Shown here: one piece after another, positions 247 through 10,577 of the stretch
Layout of the letters: every line of letters starts with the position of its first letter
Numbering within the stretch: position 1 is the stretch's first letter
Source: Chthonomonadia bacterium
GTDB lineage: Bacteria > Armatimonadota > HRBIN16
Assembly: GCA_013314755.1 (NCBI GenBank)
Contig: JABUFA010000012.1
Coordinates: 1-64,000 of the forward strand
Direction of reading: 5' to 3'
DNA length: 64,000 nt
Program-made: the position numbers and the translations under genes
Notes under the pieces: generated by a model
Seen by the model: the letters and a program-made list of their open reading frames with translations, nothing else
Database searches by the model: none
What the model was told of the DNA's origin: nothing

Positions 247-1437
247 ATGGATACTCGCAAGCCCGTAACCGCGTTGACCCTTGCCACGCTGGCGTTTGCC
301 ATCGCCTTCGCGGTGTGGGGCATCATCGCGCCAATGGCGAAGACCTTCCAGACGAGCCTCGGGCTCACCGAGAAGCAGGCGTGGCTGCTGATTGCTGCGC
401 CTGTGTTGCTGGGGTCCATCGGGCGTATCCCCATGGGCATGCTGGCAGACCGCTATGGTGGCAGGATAGTCTTTTCAGCGTTACTGCTCTTCGTTGCCAT
501 TCCCGCCTTTATGCTCAGCCGGGCACACACCTACGCCGAGTTCCTGTTCTGGGGGCTACTGCTGGGTTTTGCGGGCACGTCGTTTTCCATTGGCATCGCC
601 TTCACCTCGCGCTGGTTCCCACCGGAGAAGCAGGGGCTGGCTCTGGGCATTTATGGGGCAGGCAACATCGGACAGAGCATTGCGCTGTTTGGAGTGCCGG
701 TGCTGGCAAGCGCGTGGGGCTGGCAGAACGCATACCGTGTGTTCGCGCTGGTGGCGCTGGTATGGGGCGTGGTGTTTCTGCTTCTCGCCCGAGATGCGCC
801 CGCAAAGACACAGCCCAAGTCTTTCGGCGCGATGTTGAAAGTGCTGGCGACTGAACCGCTGTCGTGGCTGTTATCGCTGTTCTACTTTGTTACCTTCGGC
901 GGTTTTGTCGCGCTGAGTATCGGCTTGCCCAAACTGCTGCAGGAGATTTTCCACCTGACCAAAGAGGACGCCGGATTGCGTGTGGCAGGCTTTGTGGTGG
1001 TGGCTACCGCCATGCGCCCTGTTGGCGGGTGGTTAAGCGACCGGTTTGGCGGTGCGAAGGTATTGATGGCGGTTTTCGCCGCAGCGGGGGTGCTGGCGCT
1101 TGGCTTGACGGTGGAGCACATTGTGCCCTTCACCATCGGGGCGCTGGGCGTGGCTGCGGCAATCGGCACCGGTAACGGCGCGGTGTTCAAGCTGGTGCCC
1201 CAGTACTTTCCCCGCGACGTTGGCACGGTTACCGGACTGGTCGGCGCGATGGGTGGCTTGGGAGGCTTCTTCCCACCCATCGTGCTGGGCTACATCAAGA
1301 CCTATACCGGCGTGTACGATTTGGGGTTCGTTCTGCTGTCGGCGTTCTGCTTTGCCTGCCTTGTGCTGAACTACAGAGTATTCCTGTACGGTGCGCGGCA
1401 AGCGCAGCGAGTGCCAACAGCATCACCGGGTACGTAG
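247..1437 (+). CDS. narK: NarK-family nitrate/nitrite MFS transporter
   Basis: A 396-residue major facilitator superfamily protein with about twelve hydrophobic segments. The loop after the second helix carries the MFS motif G-M-L-A-D-R-Y-G-G-R. Two glycine-rich stretches (GAGNIGQSIALFGVP, and the run around GTGNGAVFKLVPQYFP with GAMGGLGGFFPP) match the nitrate signatures of the NarK/NNP family. It should move nitrate in and/or nitrite out across the inner membrane. The ATG follows GGAGG at 234-238 with good spacing. It is the first gene of the operon, 28 bases before the molybdoenzyme gene, and is the main reason to propose nitrate as the substrate of that enzyme. Import versus exchange cannot be told from the sequence. 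Confidence 0.88.
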   Translation: MDTRKPVTALTLATLAFAIAFAVWGIIAPMAKTFQTSLGLTEKQAWLLIAAPVLLGSIGRIPMGMLADRYGGRIVFSALLLFVAIPAFMLSRAHTYAEFLFWGLLLGFAGTSFSIGIAFTSRWFPPEKQGLALGIYGAGNIGQSIALFGVPVLASAWGWQNAYRVFALVALVWGVVFLLLARDAPAKTQPKSFGAMLKVLATEPLSWLLSLFYFVTFGGFVALSIGLPKLLQEIFHLTKEDAGLRVAGFVVVATAMRPVGGWLSDRFGGAKVLMAVFAAAGVLALGLTVEHIVPFTIGALGVAAAIGTGNGAVFKLVPQYFPRDVGTVTGLVGAMGGLGGFFPPIVLGYIKTYTGVYDLGFVLLSAFCFACLVLNYRVFLYGARQAQRVPTASPGT

Positions 1438-1465: not shown

Positions 1466-3910
1466 ATGGATATGGCGACGCTACACGCGGTTCCCGGACG
1501 TATACCAAAGCCTGCCCCGCAGGAGAAGGTGCGGGTGGTGCGCACTACCGACAGCCCCAACTGCACCGGCGCCTGTGGATGGATGGCAACGGTCGTCAAC
1601 GACGTCATTGTTGACCTGAAACCCGCAGCGGATTATCCCTGCGAGGAGTACAACCCTCGTGGCTGTCTGCGCGGGATGTCCATGACGCATATCATTTACG
1701 GTCCCGACCGCATCAAGACGCCTCTCATCCGTGTGGGCGAACGCGGGGAGGGCAAATGGAGGGAAGCCACCTGGGACGAGGCGATGGACTACATTGCCCA
1801 GAAGATGAAGCACATTATGGAGAACTACGGACCGGAGAGCATGTTGCTCTTCAACCAGGTGGTCGGCACAAGCTATGTACAAAAGGGCGCACAGATCCGC
1901 ATGGCCGCTCTGCTGGGGATGTCCTTCGCCACTGCCTACGACTACAACGGCGACATCTCCATGGGCTTTACCCAGACCTTCGGCATCGACAGTGTGGAGT
2001 GCGAGACCAAGAGCTGGGGATACGCCAAATACGCCATCCTGTGGTCATCCAATGTCCTGCAGACGCGCATCCCCGATGCCCAGTTCCTGACCCGCTTCGC
2101 CAAACAGCGCAATAACTGTAAGATTGTCTCCATCGACCCCAGATGCAGTCAAACGGCAAAAGCAGCCGACCTGTGGTTGCCGATTAACCCGGGCACCGAC
2201 GGTGCGCTGGCGCTGGCGATGTGCCAGGTGCTTATCGAGGAGAACCTGGTGGACTGGGAGTTTCTGCGAACCTACACCGACTGCGCCACGCTCATCCGTG
2301 AGGATAACGGAATGCGCCTGCGTGCCAGCAACGTCGGGATGGGAGGCGAGAACGAGTTCCTAGTGTGGGACGAGACCCGCCAGGAACTGTACAAACTGCC
2401 CACCGACACGCTGGAACTGCCGGAGGATGTGCGTCCTGCCTTCAGGGGTGAATGGACGGTGCAGATAGACGGCAAACCGGTCAGGGTAAGACCCGTCTAT
2501 CAGCTGCTGGAGTCGGTTATCATGCGGGACGAGTACACCCCCGAGCGCGTGGCACAAATCACCGATATCCCAGCCGAAACCATCCGCCAGGTAGCCAGGG
2601 AATACGCCACTACGAAGCCCGCCATTATCATCATCGGGATGGGCATCAATCACCGCTACTATGGTGACCTGACCATTCGCTCCATCCTTCTGCTCAGCAC
2701 ACTGGCGGGCAACTATGGCACGCCCGGCTCAGGGGTCTCCATCTACTCGGGACAGCATCACTTCCGCATCGACATCAGCGGATTCTGGTACCCCGACGGC
2801 AAGCGACCCAATGTGGTGCCCCTGCACTATTTTGTGCTGGGCAAACCCACCGAAACCATCAACCCCAAAATCAAATATCCGAAGCACGGGTTCAAGGCGC
2901 TGTTCGTCTCGCACGGCAATCCGCTGGTCACCGAGTTCTCCAGCCTGATGAAACAGGCGATAGACCGGCTGGAGCTGTTTGTGGTGATCGACTTCAGCAT
3001 GACGCCCACCTGCGAATACGCCGATGTGGTGCTGCCCGCGCCAACCTTCTGGGAGAAGTACGACCTGGTGGGCACCAGCTGCCATCCTTACCTGCAGATT
3101 CAACAGCCGGTTATCCCGCCCCAGTATGAGAGCAGGACGGAGCTGTGGATGGTGCAGGAGCTGGTCAAACGGGTGGCGCCCGAGCTGTACCACTACTTCG
3201 ACCTGACGGAGCTGGACGCCGTTCGCATCCTGCTGGAGACGGGCGGCAAAGAGACCGAAGGTATCACGCTGGAACGGCTGCTGCAGGGACCCGTCCGTCT
3301 GAACGTGCCCGACCCGGAAATCGGGCTGGACGAACAGCTGTTGCACAAGAAACCGTTCCCGCCGCGAGCCTATCCCTTCCGGGTGGAACAGCAGCGAGAG
3401 TTCCTGAAGACAGGGCGCATGGAGTTCTACAAAGAGGAACCCATCTACCAGCAGATGGGCGAGTCGCTGCCGGTCTTCAAGCCTGCCTTCAGCCACCTGC
3501 CGGAGGAGGACCAGAAGATGCCGCTGTGCATCGTTACGCCGCACTCCAAGTGGCGGGTGCACTCCACGCACAGCAACAACCCGGTTCTGCTCAACGTGAA
3601 CCGCAAACCGGTGGTGGAGATTAACCCGCGCGACGCGATGGCACGAGGCATCCGCGACGGCGACCTGGTGGAGATATACAGCAACTATGGCTCGTATCGC
3701 CTGTGGGCGCTGGTTACCGAAGCCATCAAACCCGGCGTTGTCTGCGTGGACCACGGCTGGTGGGACCGCTATCTCGCCGGCGGCAAGTACCACAGCGTGC
3801 ATACGCACCAGAAGATTAAACCCACCCACGAGGCGTATTTCCTGCCCGCGGTATACGCCCCCGGGCAACACTGGAAAGACACCCGTGTGGACGTCAGAAA
3901 GGTGGAATGA
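1466..3910 (+). CDS. Nar-like molybdopterin oxidoreductase, catalytic subunit
   Basis: An 814-residue protein of the DMSO reductase superfamily, binding a bis-MGD molybdenum cofactor. The N-terminal cluster motif reads D29-x3-C33-x3-C37-x29-C67, so an Asp sits where most members have Cys and NarG has His. This pattern, with TRIPDAQF near residue 200 and D163 in YNGDISMG as candidate Mo ligand, places it near the type II (Asp-ligated) branch of NarG and relatives. No twin-arginine signal is seen, so the active site is predicted to be cytoplasmic. It is much shorter than NarG (about 1200 residues) and no narJ chaperone gene follows. With narK upstream and a NarH/NarI-like fusion downstream, nitrate reduction is the favoured role. 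Another oxyanion, or the reverse (oxidising) direction, is possible. Confidence 0.8.
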   Translation: MDMATLHAVPGRIPKPAPQEKVRVVRTTDSPNCTGACGWMATVVNDVIVDLKPAADYPCEEYNPRGCLRGMSMTHIIYGPDRIKTPLIRVGERGEGKWREATWDEAMDYIAQKMKHIMENYGPESMLLFNQVVGTSYVQKGAQIRMAALLGMSFATAYDYNGDISMGFTQTFGIDSVECETKSWGYAKYAILWSSNVLQTRIPDAQFLTRFAKQRNNCKIVSIDPRCSQTAKAADLWLPINPGTDGALALAMCQVLIEENLVDWEFLRTYTDCATLIREDNGMRLRASNVGMGGENEFLVWDETRQELYKLPTDTLELPEDVRPAFRGEWTVQIDGKPVRVRPVYQLLESVIMRDEYTPERVAQITDIPAETIRQVAREYATTKPAIIIIGMGINHRYYGDLTIRSILLLSTLAGNYGTPGSGVSIYSGQHHFRIDISGFWYPDGKRPNVVPLHYFVLGKPTETINPKIKYPKHGFKALFVSHGNPLVTEFSSLMKQAIDRLELFVVIDFSMTPTCEYADVVLPAPTFWEKYDLVGTSCHPYLQIQQPVIPPQYESRTELWMVQELVKRVAPELYHYFDLTELDAVRILLETGGKETEGITLERLLQGPVRLNVPDPEIGLDEQLLHKKPFPPRAYPFRVEQQREFLKTGRMEFYKEEPIYQQMGESLPVFKPAFSHLPEEDQKMPLCIVTPHSKWRVHSTHSNNPVLLNVNRKPVVEINPRDAMARGIRDGDLVEIYSNYGSYRLWALVTEAIKPGVVCVDHGWWDRYLAGGKYHSVHTHQKIKPTHEAYFLPAVYAPGQHWKDTRVDVRKVE

Positions 3911-3912
3911 TT

Positions 3913-5793
3913 ATGGCACGACTGGCAATGCTCATTGACCTGACGCGGTGCATCGGATGTGATGCCTGCACTATCGCCTGCAAACAGGAAAACGGCACGC
4001 CGGCAGATGTGTTCTTCGCGCGGGTGCTGAACGTAGAAGCAGGCACTTATCCCACGGTGAAGCGCATCTACATCCCGGTGCTGTGCAACCATTGCGATAA
4101 CCCGGCGTGTCTGAAAGCCTGTCCGAACAAAGCCATTTTCCGCCGCGACGACGGTATCGTGCTGATCGACCAGGACCGCTGTCGGGGAGCAGGAGCCTGC
4201 GTTTCGGCGTGTCCTTACGGCAATATCATCCTGACCGACAGAGACCGCTGGTATCTGCCCGATGACCGCCCCTACGAGCGTGATTTCGTCAGGCCGCGCC
4301 TGAAGGAACAGGTTGCCCGCAAATGTACCTTCTGCGCGCACCGGGTGGACCAGGGGCTGGAGCCGGCATGTGTGGTCGCCTGTCCAACCACTGCCCGCAT
4401 CTTCGGCGACGTGGAAGACCCCAGCAGTAAAATCTCGCGTTACATTGTGGAACAGCAGGAAACCACCGGTCGCCAGCCCTTCAAACTGCTTCCCGAGGCG
4501 CAGACACAGCCGGCAAATATGTATCTGGGCACGATGGCGGCACAGGAGGTCAGCACGACGGAGGCGCCTCCCGGCAGGCGTGAGATACCCACAGAGGCAG
4601 AGCAACAGCGTGAGCGCACGGGCGTGCTGGTGGGTGCTGCGAGGTTGTTCACAGGATTTACCCTGCTATGGCTGATTGCCATCGCTGTGCTGCTGGCGCT
4701 GCAAGCCAAAGCCCAGCCGAACGGCGCAGCCCCAACGCCTTCGGAACTCTACGCGGACTCGGCGTGCGCGGGATGTCACGGACCAAACGTGATGGGCGGG
4801 CTGGGACCGCCGCTTGCCGAAACAAAACTGACATACGACCAGTTCCTCAAGATCGTGCGGGAGGGGCGCGGGATGATGCCGGCTACTCCAGTCTCTGAGA
4901 TGCCTGACCAGGAGGTGCGTGTCATCTATGACCTCGTACGTCAAACCCGTCTGGACATCATGCAGGTTCCCACCTCTTACAAGGTTGGTCAGTGGCTAAG
5001 CACCACGCACGTTGCGGTAATATTCTCCATCGTCACCCTTATCGCGCTGGTGTTTACCATCCGTGTGATACTGTACTGGGTAGACTGTGCCGGCTGGAAG
5101 TATCTCAAGCCCTACCTGCAGCGGTTCGGCTACGGCAGGGCGCTGGGAGTGTTCCTGCGCTCGCTGGTGGTAGACGGCTTGCTGGTGGCCCACCTGTGGC
5201 GTAAGGACCGGTTCCGCTGGCTGATGCACGCGCTGATGCTCTATGGATTCATCGGGCTGGGGGTGGCGGACATCTTGATGACCATCTTCAACCCCACGCG
5301 CGGCACGCTTCCCATCACTCATCCGCTGAAGCTCCTGCCAAACATCGCAGGACTGCTGATACTGGCGGGCATCGTGTACGTGCGCTACCGCTACAGCGAA
5401 GACCCCTACATCGACAACGGCGTGACCCTGAGCAGAGACTACACCTTCCTGAGCCTGCTGACATGGACCATCCTGACGGGCTTTCTGGTAGAAGGGCTGG
5501 GTTATGCCGGGGCGTACATGTGGATACAGCCGGCGTACATGCTTCACCTTGCGCTGGTGGCAGGGTTGTTTGTCACTGCACCGTTCACCCGCTTCTCGCA
5601 TGTGTTCGTGGTGCCGATTCTGATCGCGTTGACGCGCGTGACCTCCCAGGTGGCTTTCAGCGGGGTGGAGGCAGGTTTTCTGGATGAACCCTCGCCGGGA
5701 CGCCACCACAAGTCCGAGCGTATCGCCGCCGATGTGTTACAGCAGGTAGCACCGGAAGTCGCAGGGCAGTTCCGCCTGCGTTACTACCCGTAA
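3913..5793 (+). CDS. Fused FeS / cytochrome c / NarI-like membrane subunit
   Basis: A 626-residue electron-transfer protein. Residues 1-165 form a NarH/DmsB-like ferredoxin domain with four Cys groups: C13/16/19/23, C58/61/66/70, C90/96/100 and C138/141/153/157. The third group reads CRGAGAC, lacking one Cys exactly where NarH has Trp (CRGWRMC), which predicts one [3Fe-4S] and three [4Fe-4S] clusters. A membrane helix (about 245-266) precedes a cytochrome c domain with CAGCH (285-289). The last 260 residues have about five helices with conserved His and the HL...PFTRFSHVF pattern of the NarI/DsrM family. The FeS part should face the cytoplasm and the c-type heme the outside. ATG 3913 is chosen over 3907 because AAAGGTGG lies 7 bases upstream. 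The frame overlaps the previous stop region. Confidence 0.82.
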   Translation: MARLAMLIDLTRCIGCDACTIACKQENGTPADVFFARVLNVEAGTYPTVKRIYIPVLCNHCDNPACLKACPNKAIFRRDDGIVLIDQDRCRGAGACVSACPYGNIILTDRDRWYLPDDRPYERDFVRPRLKEQVARKCTFCAHRVDQGLEPACVVACPTTARIFGDVEDPSSKISRYIVEQQETTGRQPFKLLPEAQTQPANMYLGTMAAQEVSTTEAPPGRREIPTEAEQQRERTGVLVGAARLFTGFTLLWLIAIAVLLALQAKAQPNGAAPTPSELYADSACAGCHGPNVMGGLGPPLAETKLTYDQFLKIVREGRGMMPATPVSEMPDQEVRVIYDLVRQTRLDIMQVPTSYKVGQWLSTTHVAVIFSIVTLIALVFTIRVILYWVDCAGWKYLKPYLQRFGYGRALGVFLRSLVVDGLLVAHLWRKDRFRWLMHALMLYGFIGLGVADILMTIFNPTRGTLPITHPLKLLPNIAGLLILAGIVYVRYRYSEDPYIDNGVTLSRDYTFLSLLTWTILTGFLVEGLGYAGAYMWIQPAYMLHLALVAGLFVTAPFTRFSHVFVVPILIALTRVTSQVAFSGVEAGFLDEPSPGRHHKSERIAADVLQQVAPEVAGQFRLRYYP

Positions 5794-5811: not shown

Positions 5812-6318
5812 ATGAGCAATAACGGATTTGAACATAACGACGACCAGCCGAACGCCGTCCTCCGACGCAGGGTGCTGGGGTGGCTGGTAGGCGTCATCAA
5901 CCTCGCGGTGCTCGGGGGTATCGTTGCACCCGTTCTGGGGTTCATCAGCTCGCCGGCGAACTGGCGACAGCGCAGAAAGGAGTGGATACCTGTTCTGGAC
6001 GAGAGCCGCCTGCGACCGGGCGAAACGCTTTCAGTAAACTATCAGGTACCCATACAGGACGGCTACACAAACGCACAGCGCAAGTACAGCGTCTACCTGT
6101 ATCGCCGGTTAGACGGTTCGGTGGTGGCTTTTGACCCCTCATGTCCCCATCTGGGCTGCCGGGTGGAGTTTCGGGAACGCAAACAACGCTACATTTGTCC
6201 CTGCCATGGCGGGGTGTTTGACGCCGATGGCAATCTGGTGTCGGGTCCCCCGCCAACCGGTCTAACCAAATTGCCTGTCAGGGTGGACGCGGGCAAAATC
6301 TGGATACGGAGGGTGTAA
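5812..6318 (+). CDS. Rieske [2Fe-2S] iron-sulfur protein
   Basis: A 168-residue protein with an N-terminal membrane anchor (about residues 20-45, after RRR) and a soluble Rieske domain. The cluster motifs are C111-P-H113-L-G-C116 and C129-P-C131-H132-G-G, supplying two Cys and two His ligands plus the disulfide pair. The usual forms are CTHLGC and CPCHGS; the Ser-to-Gly change would be expected to lower the redox potential (family knowledge). The start follows GAGGAGG with good spacing and the next gene begins 4 bases after the stop. With the cytochrome b gene it should form a quinol-oxidising bc-type module that feeds the oxidoreductase encoded upstream. Confidence 0.9.
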   Translation: MSNNGFEHNDDQPNAVLRRRVLGWLVGVINLAVLGGIVAPVLGFISSPANWRQRRKEWIPVLDESRLRPGETLSVNYQVPIQDGYTNAQRKYSVYLYRRLDGSVVAFDPSCPHLGCRVEFRERKQRYICPCHGGVFDADGNLVSGPPPTGLTKLPVRVDAGKIWIRRV

Positions 6319-6322
6319 GCGT

Positions 6323-7522
6323 ATGGCACACCTTATCGAAAAAACCGTCGAAAGAGAACCGACCCCATCGCGTTCGGATGGACAGCCGATGGAACCAGTA
6401 TCGCCCCGGCAAGAGGCAGGGTGGATAGGTCGCCTGCGCGACTGGATTGAGGAACGCACGGGCATCTTCGCCTTCGCCAAACACCATCTGGACGAGCCGA
6501 TGCCTCCGGGCGTCGGATGGTGGCAGACGCTGGGCAACCTGTTGTTGACCCTGCTGATATTCCAGTTCATCACCGGCTTTGCGCTCGCCATGTTCTACGC
6601 GCCAACGCCGGACCACGCCCACGAAAGCGTGAGATACATCATGGAGGAAGTACCGCTTGGTGCGTTCATCCGAGGACTGCACCACTGGGGTTCCTCGTTT
6701 ATCATACTGGTGGTGATACTGCATATCCTGCGCGTGTTCTTCTGGGGCTCGTACAAGAAGCCGCGCGAGCTGACCTGGCTGGTGGGCGTGGCAATCTTTC
6801 AGGTGATGATGGCGTTCGCGTTCACCGGCTACCTGCTCATCTGGGACCAGAAGGCGTACTGGGCAACGGTAGTGGGCACACGTTTTGCTAGCACAGTGCC
6901 TGTCATTGGCGACTGGCTCATGCACTTCCTGCGCGGTGGCGAAGAGGTAGGTGCGCTAACCCTGACCCGCTTCTATGCCATCCACATCATGCTCCTGCCG
7001 GTGGTGCTGGTACTGTTGACGGCGGCGCATCTGTACCTGGTGAGGCGTCTGCACATCGCGGGGCCGGTGGTACCACAGAAAGGCAAGCCTCAGCCGTTTT
7101 ACCCCTACCAGCTCTTTCGGGACGCTGTGGTGGTTATGGTCGGCGTGGGTGCACTGGTGACCTGCGCTCTGCTGTTCAAACCCGCGCTGTATCCGGTGGC
7201 TGACCCTTCTGGCACAAACTTCACTCCGCGTCCCGAATGGTACTTCCTGGGCTTGTACGAACTGCTGAAGCTGATGCCGCCGAAGCTGGAGATACTGGGC
7301 ACGGTGGTCATCCCGGGGCTGGTGGCGCTGGGCATGATCCTTCTGCCCTGGCTGGACCGTTCGCCATCGCGGCATCCCGCCCGTCGGATGTGGGTGATTG
7401 AGGCGGGGCTAATCGTCATCTTTCTCATCGGCACGCTAACGCTGAAGGGGATTCTTTCCGAGCATCCCATGCCGCCTGCCACGTCGTCGGCAGTTTCTTC
7501 TACCGCTTCCCTCCCACAGTAG
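6323..7522 (+). CDS. b6-type cytochrome b (b6 plus subunit IV fusion)
   Basis: A 399-residue membrane protein with about eight helices. Heme ligands appear as H-x13-H (from HHWGSSFIILVVILH) and H-x14-H (from HIMLLPVVLVLLTAAH). The 14-residue second spacing is typical of cytochrome b6 rather than mitochondrial-type b. The Qo-site PEWY motif is present in RPEWYFLGLYELLK, so the b6 and subunit IV parts are in one chain. No cytochrome c1 or f gene follows, unlike ordinary bc1/b6f operons, so the electron acceptor is likely the cytochrome c domain of the fused subunit encoded upstream. A perfect hairpin follows 5 bases after the stop, so this is probably the last gene of the operon. Confidence 0.9.
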   Translation: MAHLIEKTVEREPTPSRSDGQPMEPVSPRQEAGWIGRLRDWIEERTGIFAFAKHHLDEPMPPGVGWWQTLGNLLLTLLIFQFITGFALAMFYAPTPDHAHESVRYIMEEVPLGAFIRGLHHWGSSFIILVVILHILRVFFWGSYKKPRELTWLVGVAIFQVMMAFAFTGYLLIWDQKAYWATVVGTRFASTVPVIGDWLMHFLRGGEEVGALTLTRFYAIHIMLLPVVLVLLTAAHLYLVRRLHIAGPVVPQKGKPQPFYPYQLFRDAVVVMVGVGALVTCALLFKPALYPVADPSGTNFTPRPEWYFLGLYELLKLMPPKLEILGTVVIPGLVALGMILLPWLDRSPSRHPARRMWVIEAGLIVIFLIGTLTLKGILSEHPMPPATSSAVSSTASLPQ

Positions 7523-7527
7523 GAGTT

Positions 7528-7553
7528 GTGGCAGAGGCACACGCCTCTGCCAC
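7528..7553 (+). terminator. Perfect 11-bp hairpin closing the nar-type operon
   Basis: Arms GTGGCAGAGGC (7528-7538) and GCCTCTGCCAC (7543-7553) enclose an ACAC loop. No T run follows (next bases CGTTACC), so it may act with Rho or as an mRNA-stabilising end rather than as a classical intrinsic terminator. Confidence 0.55.
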
Positions 7554-7603
7554 CGTTACCCCACGCAGGATAAGGCTCGCTCGGTCGCTAACTAACCATT
7601 GCT

Positions 7604-8119
7604 ATGCGTAAGGGTCAACGCTTTACAAGAACATATCCCCTCGCGGCGATAGTGCTTATCCTGGCGGTATCCGCGCTGTGGTACCGCTGGATGCCCGCCC
7701 GCGGCGACTTCACCGGCAAAGTGGTTGGCGTCTCGGACGGCGACACCATTGAGGTCATGCGTGCAGGACGAGCCGTTCGTGTGCGCCTGCACGGTATTGA
7801 TTGCCCCGAAAGCAGGCAGGCGTTCGGCACACGCGCCAAGCAGTTCACTTCCGAACTGGTCTTCGGCAAAACGGTGGCGGTGCAGGTGTACGGAACCGAC
7901 CAGTACGGGCGCATTCTGGGCGAGGTCATCCTGCCCGACGGCCGAAGCCTCAACCGCGAGCTGGTGCGCAACGGCTACGCCTGGTGGTATCGCCGCTACT
8001 CGAACGACCCGGTGTTACAGCAGCTCGAGGACGAGGCGCGGCGCGAACGACGCGGCTTGTGGCGGGATAAGAATCCGATTCCGCCCTGGGAGTTTCGCCG
8101 GGAGAGCAGGAGACGATAG
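7604..8119 (+). CDS. Thermonuclease-family (SNase) protein, membrane anchored or secreted
   Basis: A 171-residue protein with a hydrophobic N-terminal segment (about 11-28) followed by a staphylococcal-nuclease OB fold. The family motifs are all present: DGDTIEV, RVRLHGIDCPE (catalytic Arg and Ca-binding Asp region) and the second Arg in DQYGRILG. It should cut DNA or RNA in a calcium-dependent way outside the cytoplasmic membrane, for scavenging or degradation. It follows the operon hairpin and shows no functional link to the respiration genes. The RWMPARGDF region marks the start of the catalytic domain. Confidence 0.85.
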   Translation: MRKGQRFTRTYPLAAIVLILAVSALWYRWMPARGDFTGKVVGVSDGDTIEVMRAGRAVRVRLHGIDCPESRQAFGTRAKQFTSELVFGKTVAVQVYGTDQYGRILGEVILPDGRSLNRELVRNGYAWWYRRYSNDPVLQQLEDEARRERRGLWRDKNPIPPWEFRRESRRR

Positions 8120-8201
8120 CCAGCTTGCAGGAATCCCTCCCTTCGCCCCCGAAAGCGTACCGTAACACCGTCAGTATGGACGAAGGAGGATTGTGCAAAG
8201 G

Positions 8202-9038
8202 ATGGAAATCGGCATATTGACCGCGCCGTTTGGAGGAGAGCCGCTGGAGGTGGTTGCCGCCTTCGCCGGCGAGCACGGCTTTGCTGCACTGGAGGTGGCT
8301 TCAGGACCTGGCTCCAAACATATCGACATCACCAGCTTCACCCAGGCAGACGCCGACCGAGTGCTGGAACTGCTGGAACGGCGCGCCCTGCGCATCAGCA
8401 GTGTGGCGTTTTACACCAACACCACCCCCGCCGACCCGCAGGAGCGTGCAAAGGTGGTGGACCTGCTGAAGAAGGCGGTGGACGCCGCGAAGATGCTGGA
8501 TGTGGACGTGGTGTGCACCCTGGGCGGAATGCCTGTGCCCGGCAAGGACAAGTTTAAGACCATTGAAACGGAATGTAAAGAGGTCTTTACGCAGGTGGCG
8601 GAGTACGCGGGCGAGCGCGGTGTGAAGATTGCGCTGGAGAACTGGTATGCCACCAACATGCAGGGGCTGGAGCACTGGCGCTGTATGTTCGACGCCGTAC
8701 CGCACGAGAACTTCGGGCTGAACTTCGACCCGTCGCACCTTATCTGGCAGGGAATAGACTATATCGCGGCGGTGCATCACTTCGGCAAGCGCATTTTCCA
8801 TACGCACGCCAAAGACACCGAAATCCGCGAGGACAGGTTGCGCTGGCTGGGCAACCAGCAGATGGGCTGGTGGCGCTATGTGATACCCGGCTTTGGCGCG
8901 GTGCGCTGGGGCGAGTACATCGGCGCCCTGCGTTCGGTCGGCTACGATGGTGTGCTGTCTATCGAGCACGAGGACAGCGCGTTCGGGCGGGAAGAGGGCT
9001 TCCTCGCCGGCAAACGCTACCTCAGCCAGTTCATTTAG
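8202..9038 (+). CDS. Sugar phosphate isomerase/epimerase, TIM barrel (xylose-isomerase-like)
   Basis: A 278-residue protein of the AP-endonuclease-2 / xylose-isomerase-like TIM-barrel family. Visible family features include ALENW (metal-ligand Glu), GLNFDPSHL, FHTHAKDTE and the late SIEHED metal-site segment. It should interconvert a sugar or sugar derivative using a divalent metal. ATG 8202 is preferred over the in-frame GTG at 8193 because GGAGGA at 8185-8190 is too close to the GTG. The xylulokinase gene starts 9 bases after its stop, so the pair likely works in pentose or polyol catabolism. The exact substrate is not readable from the sequence. Confidence 0.8.
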   Translation: MEIGILTAPFGGEPLEVVAAFAGEHGFAALEVASGPGSKHIDITSFTQADADRVLELLERRALRISSVAFYTNTTPADPQERAKVVDLLKKAVDAAKMLDVDVVCTLGGMPVPGKDKFKTIETECKEVFTQVAEYAGERGVKIALENWYATNMQGLEHWRCMFDAVPHENFGLNFDPSHLIWQGIDYIAAVHHFGKRIFHTHAKDTEIREDRLRWLGNQQMGWWRYVIPGFGAVRWGEYIGALRSVGYDGVLSIEHEDSAFGREEGFLAGKRYLSQFI

Positions 9039-9047
9039 GAGGTGCCT

Positions 9048-10577
9048 ATGGCATACCTGCTGGGCATTGACGTCGGCACCAGCGGCACCAAAGCCCTGCT
9101 CATCGACGAGAGCGGGAAGGTAGTGGCGCGTGCGGTCAGCGAGTACCCGCTGTACACGCCGAAGCCACTCTGGGCAGAGCAGGAGCCTGCCGACTGGTGG
9201 CGTGCCACCTGCGAAAGCATTCGCGAGGTGCTGAGCCGGGCGGGCGTCACGGGCGACGAGGTAAAAGGCGTTGGGCTATCGGGGCAGATGCACGGCTCGG
9301 TGTTTCTGGACGAAGACAACCAGGTCATCCGCCCCGCCATCCTGTGGTGCGACCAGCGTACCGCCGCCGAGTGCGAGTGGATTACCGAAACGGTCGGGCG
9401 ACAGCGCATCGTGGAGTTGACCTCCAATCCCGTGCTCACGGGCTTTCAGGCGGGGAAAATCATCTGGCTTCGCAACAACGAGCCGGAGGCATACGCCCGC
9501 GTGCGCAAGGTTCTGCTCCCCAAAGACTACATTCGCTACCTGCTGACCGGCGAGTACGCCACGGAGGTGTCGGATGCTTCGGGCACTTCGCTGTTCAACG
9601 TGCGTCGGCGGCAGTGGGCGGATGAGGTGCTGGATGCCGTCGGTATCCCGCGCGAATGGATGCCGAAGGTGTACGAATCTCCCGAAATCACGGGGCGCAT
9701 CACCGCGCAGGCGGCGAATGCCACCGGTCTGAAGGAGGGAACGCCTGTCGTGGGCGGTGGTGGCGACCAGGCGGCAGGCGCGGTGGGCAACGGCATCGTG
9801 GAGACGGGCGTGGTGTCGGTGTCGGTGGGCACGTCGGGAGTGGTGTTTGCCTTCGCGGACGAACCGGTGGTGGACCCCGGCTTGCGCACGCACACCTTCT
9901 GCCATGCCGTGCCGGGCAAGTGGCATGTGATGGGCGTGATGCTGTCTGCCGGGGGAAGCCTGCGCTGGTGGCGCGATGCGTTCGCTACCGAAGAGAAGAA
10001 CGTCGCCGCGGCGATGGGCGTAGACCCCTACGAGCTGATAACCGCCGAGGCGGCACAGGCTCCGCTGGGCACGGAGGGGATGATATTCCTGCCGTACCTG
10101 ACGGGCGAGCGCACCCCACACGCCGACCCCCATGCGCGCGGCGTCTTTTTCGGAATCACCCTGCGCTCCGACCGCTCGCACTTCGCCCGGGCGATACTGG
10201 AGGGCGTGGCGTTCGGCTTGCGCGACTCGTTTGAGATCCTGCGCGAGATGGGATTGCCCATCACGCAGGTGCGAGCCTCCGGCGGCGGAGCGCGCAGTGC
10301 GGTGTGGCGACAGATTCTCGCCGACGTTTCGGGCTACGACCATGTGACCATCAACGTGGACGAGGGACCGGCGTTCGGCGTAGCTCTGCTCGCGGGCGTG
10401 GGCACAGGGGTCTGGCAGAGCGTGCCCGAGGCGTGCCACGCAACCATTCAGGTGGTCAGCAACACGCCTGCCAATCCCGACGCGCATCGCGCCTACGAGC
10501 CATACTACGCCCTGTATCGCAAACTGTATCAGCACCTGAAGGCGGACTTCGCCGAAGTCGCAGGGCTGATGGAATAG
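9048..10577 (+). CDS. xylB: Xylulokinase
   Basis: A 509-residue FGGY-family carbohydrate kinase. It begins with the phosphate-1 loop GIDVGTSGTK and carries SGQMHG, a signature of xylulokinases, then WCDQRT, GGGGDQAAGAVG and GTSGVVF typical of the family's actin-like ATPase fold. It phosphorylates D-xylulose to xylulose 5-phosphate for the pentose phosphate pathway. ATG 9048 is chosen since AGGAGG at 9037-9042 overlaps the upstream stop and is correctly spaced; the pair is translationally coupled. Length is normal for the family. A related ketose could be the natural substrate, but the SGQMHG motif supports xylulose. Confidence 0.88.
   Translation: MAYLLGIDVGTSGTKALLIDESGKVVARAVSEYPLYTPKPLWAEQEPADWWRATCESIREVLSRAGVTGDEVKGVGLSGQMHGSVFLDEDNQVIRPAILWCDQRTAAECEWITETVGRQRIVELTSNPVLTGFQAGKIIWLRNNEPEAYARVRKVLLPKDYIRYLLTGEYATEVSDASGTSLFNVRRRQWADEVLDAVGIPREWMPKVYESPEITGRITAQAANATGLKEGTPVVGGGGDQAAGAVGNGIVETGVVSVSVGTSGVVFAFADEPVVDPGLRTHTFCHAVPGKWHVMGVMLSAGGSLRWWRDAFATEEKNVAAAMGVDPYELITAEAAQAPLGTEGMIFLPYLTGERTPHADPHARGVFFGITLRSDRSHFARAILEGVAFGLRDSFEILREMGLPITQVRASGGGARSAVWRQILADVSGYDHVTINVDEGPAFGVALLAGVGTGVWQSVPEACHATIQVVSNTPANPDAHRAYEPYYALYRKLYQHLKADFAEVAGLME

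Follow-up and report, generated by a model that had tools for sequence, protein, structure and literature searches.

Why would a ferredoxin-like subunit resembling that of a nitrate reductase be encoded in one frame with a c-type cytochrome domain and a NarI-like membrane part, directly upstream of genes for a Rieske protein and a cytochrome b, and by which route would electrons pass through such an assembly? The question is raised by a locus of a hot-spring bacterium of the Armatimonadota, found in a window of 64,000 nucleotides (the whole stretch of DNA that was analysed), in which a first-pass annotation had singled out the fusion gene. The upstream molybdenum subunit, the NarK-like carrier and the pair of Rieske protein and cytochrome b, all of which lay outside that annotation, form the basis for reading its function. 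The best reading, to which we assign a probability of about 0.6, is a cytoplasmic respiratory nitrate reductase of a deep type II branch, fed by a dedicated Rieske/cytochrome b unit via haems c and b. The locus suggests that this host has a nitrate-reducing enzyme that looks undescribed, and that its nitrate respiration could conserve more energy than the textbook form does.

No description of the complex was found in the literature searched, which comprised few subscription papers and no preprints. The available part of the Fimbriimonas genome paper mentions nitrate and nitrite reductase genes only (PMC4072686), and distant NarH/NxrB come up in that of a 2018 paper on MAGs from a geothermal stream (PMC5877337). 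The pieces are each known; what appears to be new is a putatively cytoplasmic type II reductase, a c haem, a NarI-like part and a Rieske/cytochrome b pair as one conserved unit.

Gene order, parts and spread of the locus

The operon lies on the forward strand and consists of genes for a NarK-like carrier, a molybdenum catalytic subunit, the fusion, a Rieske protein and a cytochrome b. Its features are as follows, with conservation counted over the aligned members of the family.

247..1437, forward strand: NarK-like MFS transporter (nitrate/nitrite); best NCBIfam match TIGR00886, NarK family, 241.6 bits, E 1.4e-71
1466..3910, forward strand: Mo-bisMGD catalytic subunit, 814 aa; Pfam Molybdopterin E 2e-58, best PDB match PcrA E 4e-123
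3907..5793, forward strand: fusion of iron-sulphur part, c haem domain and NarI-like membrane part, 628 aa (626 from the ATG at 3913)
3913..4536, forward strand: ferredoxin-like part, predicted cytoplasmic, with three [4Fe-4S] and one [3Fe-4S] predicted
4180..4200, forward strand: third Cys group, CRGAGAC, one Cys missing; Ala codon GCA at 4189-4191
4645..4713, forward strand: hydrophobic joint ending in AKA, similar to a Sec signal peptide and perhaps cleavable by signal peptidase
4729..4929, forward strand: c-type cytochrome domain, outside by prediction; PF13442 E 9e-12, one CAGCH (4765-4779)
4996..5631, forward strand: NarI/TcuB-like five-helix membrane part; PF02665 22.9 bits, hhalign NarI 94%, TcuB 97%
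5227-5229, 5545-5547 and 5599-5601, forward strand: His441, His547 and His565 of the membrane part, picked out by conservation
5686..5712, forward strand: tail motif EPSPGRHHK, predicted cytoplasmic; H601 and K602 in 36/36
5812..6318, forward strand: Rieske [2Fe-2S] protein; Pfam E 1e-12, both Cys-His ligand pairs in 35/35
6323..7522, forward strand: cytochrome b, with b6 and subunit IV in one chain; Pfam E 2e-54, Qo motif PEWY

The fusion frame is open from an ATG at 3907 or 3913 to the stop at 5793, and its start overlaps the stop of the catalytic gene. Pfam E-values of the fusion down to 3.5e-25, together with invariance over 36 genomes, argue that its domain assignments are not due to chance. 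The NarK-like carrier scores below the cut-off of TIGR00886 (241.6 vs 311.7 bits), and copies of it with 83-85% identity occur in the two nearest relatives.

The reductase is present in at least 37 of the 291 genomes of the phylum, a number obtained from 44 genomes with matches at E 1e-40 by removal of seven with weak iron-sulphur matches only; it is a lower bound, since no more than four candidates were scored in each genome. The alignment holds 36 of these 37 (G125, with broken contigs, was left out); catalytic chains were counted in 31 of the 36 (L118, L141 and L149 have partial ones, L123 and L142 none), and the Rieske protein and cytochrome b were sampled in 35 (L118 has none). The genome is placed near Bacterium HR16 (HRbin16), whose copy of the fusion is 80% identical and which belongs to the Armatimonadota, in keeping with the available part of PMC9671151; a contig scan with exact peptides of the fusion listed, of the Armatimonadota members, HR16 only. 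Among plasmids no record reached 80% cover (687 records match), and a PADLOC search with the two main proteins came back empty.

The order catalytic subunit, iron-sulphur part, cytochrome part, Rieske protein and cytochrome b on one strand is kept in all 33 loci that hold the five, and the four haem His and PEWY of cytochrome b as well as the Rieske ligands are each conserved in 35/35. Of the 291 genomes, 37 encode a cytochrome b that is at least 61% identical, and 36 of these have the reductase. The exception, a genome of the same genus (G184, locus L131), carries a clean deletion of about 5.7 kb (at 7752-7787) that removed the carrier and catalytic genes and left about 52 codons of the fusion together with the Rieske and cytochrome b genes; another genome (G104, locus L123) encodes the iron-sulphur, cytochrome and Rieske parts (7061-9380) and a cytochrome b with no catalytic gene beside them. 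The parts are therefore not strictly inseparable. A NarK-like gene belongs to 19 of the 36 loci and was not seen in the other 17, some of which are short stretches. Neighbours in other genomes include NarK-like carriers, a Crp-type regulator and an alginate-export-type porin, and the Moco genes moeA, moeB and moaA lie beside some relatives. The own genome of the window holds a second cytochrome b/Rieske set (contig C50, 38370-39452) whose cytochrome b frame is long (794 aa), and such a second set is present in most genomes of the genus.

Iron-sulphur and catalytic subunits

The first-pass annotation had described the third Cys group as CRGAGAC, lacking one Cys where NarH has CRGWRMC, and had taken it for a NarH-like [3Fe-4S] signature. 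The motif is indeed read at 4180-4200, and the signature stands: the 15 Cys of the four groups are invariant in 36/36 aligned members of the family, of which 32 carry Thr and 4 carry Ala, but none Cys, at the odd site of group III. At the same site E. coli NarH has Trp, PcrB (CKGAQAC) has Ala, and the eight type II relatives in the iron-sulphur tree have Tyr or Trp; a Cys is kept there in ArrB, PsrB and DsrO types. A sequencing error at the Ala codon, the artefact that would have explained the motif away, is excluded by the Thr or Ala at this site in all 36 relatives, with Ala also in two further MAGs (L003 and L111). The 15 ligand Cys, together with a residue other than Cys at the position of the NarH Trp, make a [3Fe-4S] cluster likely in the fusion. 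One such cluster is held by PcrB. NarH also carries one, according to the available text of PMC8301774. Two ferredoxin subunits outside the type II group, at L018 (7995-8573, CIGSKYC) and L057 (1273-1932, CGGAGTC), likewise have no group III Cys.

The kinship of the iron-sulphur part with NarH is seen in the tree but not in pairwise scores. By sequence, the part matches ArrB (E 8e-47) and PsrB (E 8e-40), both of which, like PcrB, score above NarH, and by fold it matches ArrB (Z 17.6), PsrB (17.3) and PcrB (14.1); that ArrB and PsrB are the closest agrees with its compact architecture. In a tree of 11 of the 36 family rows and 33 references, the family joins the type II group beside NarH (support 96/91, with one long-branch row inside the group), and a single clade of the iron-sulphur part and type II is not rejected (AU p 0.55). 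This placement argues that the signature is NarH-like by kinship and not only in appearance.

The best solved relative of the catalytic chain is PcrA (415 bits), followed by ethylbenzene dehydrogenase and NarG. Scores against the named families remain below their cut-offs: 512 vs 984.75 bits for TIGR03479 (type II alpha), 269 vs 1084 for TIGR01580 (narG) and, for the iron-sulphur part, 82 vs 524 for TIGR01660 (narH). In a tree with 10 of the 31 family rows, from which two reference rows were dropped as partial or mislabelled, the family forms its own branch in an Asp-ligand clade with NarG, Nxr-like and Ddh/Clr-type chains (SH-aLRT 99), where the 12 references as a group have an SH-aLRT of only 43. 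The candidate molybdenum ligand D163 (1952-1954) is conserved in 31/31, and the FS0 ligand site D29 (1550-1552) is Asp in 31/31 where NarG and PcrA have His; from these residues, FS0 is probably Asp-ligated. Both the family and the chains of L062, L078 and L081, which we take to be Nxr-like by their FS0 letters, depart from the FS0 motif HxxxCxxxC. The His of this motif is general in type II enzymes, as far as the available part of the source goes (PMC8301774).

The 8 N-termini examined of the 31 catalytic chains, e.g. MATRHAVPGR, show no Tat or Sec export signal. The other PF00384 proteins found in the own genome are NuoG and an FdhA-like protein only (named from reading the sequences, the latter also from Pfam), which leaves the catalytic subunit as the sole candidate nitrate reductase of this family in the genome. 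A search of the own genome for a NarJ-type chaperone (PF02613) found none, the control being positive in 6/14. The catalytic and iron-sulphur subunits branch off deeply among the type II DMSO reductases. Within that family they would represent a variant, so far unnamed, which would work in the manner of Nar and of haloarchaeal pNar with its Rieske/cytochrome b supply but departs from both in several features: there is no NarJ in the genome, no export signal in the N-termini examined, three of the four haem His and Asp at FS0. A probable Asp-ligated FS0 and a compact ferredoxin of the 3Fe-4S type are thereby added to a deep branch of the Nar/Nxr/perchlorate reductase family.

The c haem, the membrane part and the joint

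One c-type haem had been proposed for the fusion, and the single CAGCH bears this out, the CXXCH and a Met pair (Met323/324) being invariant in 36/36. In five of the 36 loci (L119, L121, L145, L147 and L149) a second CXXCH is seen between the iron-sulphur part and the usual c domain.

The membrane part had been called NarI-like and di-haem, and only the first half of this description is upheld. Its PF02665 match falls exactly at the cut-off (22.9 bits) and stronger profile relatives are QmoC (E 1e-11) and TcuB (E 3.6e-9), but hhalign relates it to NarI with a probability of 94% (E 2e-8; TcuB 97%). H547 and H565 align with H187 and H205 in TM5 of NarI and are conserved in 36/36, as is H441, the single conserved His of TM2. 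The second TM2 haem His is absent in 36/36, with Leu451 at the NarI spacing and Asn/Asp462 at the TcuB spacing. Two haems are doubtful because only three of the four NarI His that presumably bind haem are conserved. One bis-His haem b on the inner side, between His441 and His565, is well supported by the alignment; a second haem, at His547, would require either a different ligand or none, and the missing distal ligand makes an electron gap between the c haem and the inner haem possible. His429 was considered as the fourth ligand and rejected, as it occurs in 3/36 only and within a charged stretch.

Six hydrophobic segments and the charge pattern predict an iron-sulphur part inside and a c haem outside, in agreement with the topology given earlier. 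Lys and Arg per residue amount to about 0.18, 0.20 and 0.15 in the predicted inside stretches vs 0.09, 0.09 and 0.12 in the outside ones, and it is from these charges and the signal peptides that we infer the orientation. The membrane part was modelled poorly by AlphaFold (pLDDT 60, and 50 with DsrM rows); DsrM aligned against the whole fusion fell on the iron-sulphur part, and its rows were left out of the first model. A VIA fold search with residues 403-591 of such a model was set aside: it gave helical bundles with Z up to 10.2 (a designed protein) and otherwise below 8, under the threshold for helical models, with cytochrome b561 at Z 7.1 and NarI absent among the matches listed.

Nearly the whole electron path had been described as covalently linked. 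The single open reading frame agrees with this, but a lasting link is doubtful. The iron-sulphur and cytochrome halves share one frame in 13 of the 36 loci and are two adjoining genes in 23, and the state changed about four times on the tree (bootstrap 3-5). In split members the cytochrome half starts with a stretch similar to a Sec signal peptide, e.g. MKRLLFASLLVVSNLVLA followed by Q. The helix at the joint ends in A-x-A (or V/S-x-A) in 11/13 fused and 17/23 split members, an ending found in 12/65 other helices of the 13 fused proteins (Fisher p 9e-6, with rows that are not independent). Because the joint resembles a signal peptide, the fusion may be cut by signal peptidase after membrane insertion, for which it offers a concrete candidate site. 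Bradyrhizobium FbcH, a joint precursor of cytochromes b and c1 that is cleaved at an internal signal peptide, is a precedent; a literature search for precedents of the FbcH type found nothing. In L118 (genome G057) the C-terminal half of the catalytic gene and the fusion of iron-sulphur, c haem and NarI-like parts share one open frame (6519-9869), which could mean either a fusion of four parts or a fault in the assembly; the catalytic gene has a frame break earlier, and no Rieske or cytochrome b gene lies downstream.

Proposed electron path, alternatives and known systems

In the preferred reading, the NarK-like carrier would bring nitrate in and the catalytic subunit would reduce it in the cytoplasm, the nitrite leaving through the carrier. 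Menaquinol would be oxidised at a normal Qo site of cytochrome b, and the Rieske cluster would hand one electron to the fused outer c haem, which would stand in for cytochrome c1/f; no separate c1/f gene is present in the operon of the window, and the fused c domain could serve. The electron would then move inward through the membrane part, by way of a distal haem or site at His547 and the haem b of His441-His565, to the inner side, where a [3Fe-4S] cluster of high potential, adjacent to the membrane, would pass it through three [4Fe-4S] clusters and FS0 to molybdenum and nitrate. The missing distal haem ligand is the weak link of this path, and the NarK score under its cut-off, the lack of NarJ and the second Rieske/cytochrome b set on C50 also weigh against the reading.

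A more tentative part of the proposal, which we consider possible though rather doubtful, is that a Q-cycle complex and a nitrate reductase that carries electrons inward, joined via one c haem, would roughly double the charge yield of nitrate respiration. In that case a bc-type complex would be coupled to a cytoplasmic iron-sulphur/molybdenum terminal reductase, perhaps cut by signal peptidase into two chains. About four charges would be moved per electron pair, two by the Rieske/cytochrome b pair and two via haems c and b inward. The yield is two in NarGHI or haloarchaeal pNar, and the span from menaquinol to nitrate, about 0.5 V, could pay for about four. With this locus it becomes testable whether a Q cycle can drive a nitrate reductase while electrons are led back into the cell.

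The strongest alternative, though an unlikely one, is an enzyme of ordinary Nar type, whose NarI-like part would oxidise quinol itself while the c haem serves as an outlet to periplasmic acceptors and the Rieske and cytochrome b genes merely share the operon. NarI and the profile relatives QmoC and TcuB do belong to quinone-linked families. Thermus NarC, a periplasmic c cytochrome bound to NarI, is proposed as an electron branch in the available part of PMC7694296. However, the distal, quinol-side haem is without one of its two ligands in 36/36, the Rieske and cytochrome b genes follow in 33/33 complete loci, and the window's operon offers them no separate cytochrome c1/f.

The substrate could also be another oxyanion (perchlorate/chlorate, selenate or arsenate), reduced by an enzyme of the same type II family. 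The best solved relatives, PcrA and, for the iron-sulphur part, ArrB, would fit this improbable case, against which stand the adjoining NarK-like transporters and a NasC-like nitrate reductase that adjoins the locus in L127.

As to the fate of nitrite, NrfA-like genes occur in 18/37 reductase genomes vs 44/254 others (p 6e-5, uncorrected for kinship), and NirK-like matches in 2/291 genomes, so that nitrite to ammonium is the likely next step in about half of the reductase genomes. The own genome has an NrfA-like cytochrome (contig C48, 44177-45415, 257 bits) with one TAG inside the match. Enzymes of the type II family are reversible in principle. Operation in reverse as a nitrite oxidoreductase, with electrons leaving via haems b and c as in a Nitrobacter cluster with a NarC-like cytochrome (available part of PMC7694296), is the least probable case, given that the Nxr-like chains of L062, L078 and L081 form a separate clade and that nitrite-using NrfA-like genes accompany the reductase as counted above, the own genome included.

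Compared with known systems, the nitrate reductase proposed here shares with PcrAB the best solved catalytic match and the Ala at the odd site of PcrB, but PcrA has His at FS0 where the family has Asp, groups I and II lie further apart in PcrB, and we know of no such membrane partner for PcrAB. ArrB and PsrB are the best overall match in fold and sequence and have a similarly compact iron-sulphur part; unlike the family, which the iron-sulphur tree places with type II, they keep the 16th Cys. TcuB and QmoC are the best profile relatives of the membrane part but have no c haem, and TcuB keeps the second TM2 His where the family has Asn/Asp. E. coli NarGHI has the same [3Fe-4S]-type group III, an Asp molybdenum ligand and a TM5 His pair at 18-residue spacing, whereas the locus differs from it in a catalytic chain of 814 rather than about 1247 aa, Asp for the FS0 His, one missing TM2 haem His, the lack of NarJ and the added c haem and Rieske/cytochrome b pair. 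Thermus NarGHI-NarC resembles the predicted arrangement in combining a NarI-type membrane part with a c cytochrome outside; in the available part of the source (PMC7694296), however, NarC is a separate two-haem protein at the operon start, NarJ is present and the operon has no Rieske/cytochrome b. Haloarchaeal pNar faces outward and has NarJ, a Tat signal peptide being named for its NarG (available text of PMC8301774), whereas here no export signal is seen in the N-termini examined and no NarJ in the own genome. It is nonetheless the type II nitrate reductase that is encoded with a Rieske protein (narB) and a cytochrome b (narC) and thought to be fed through this pair, according to the available parts of two papers (PMC2483277, PMC4683180), and the same pair in the operon, kept in 33/33 complete loci here, is joined in the present family by a NarI-like part and a c haem.
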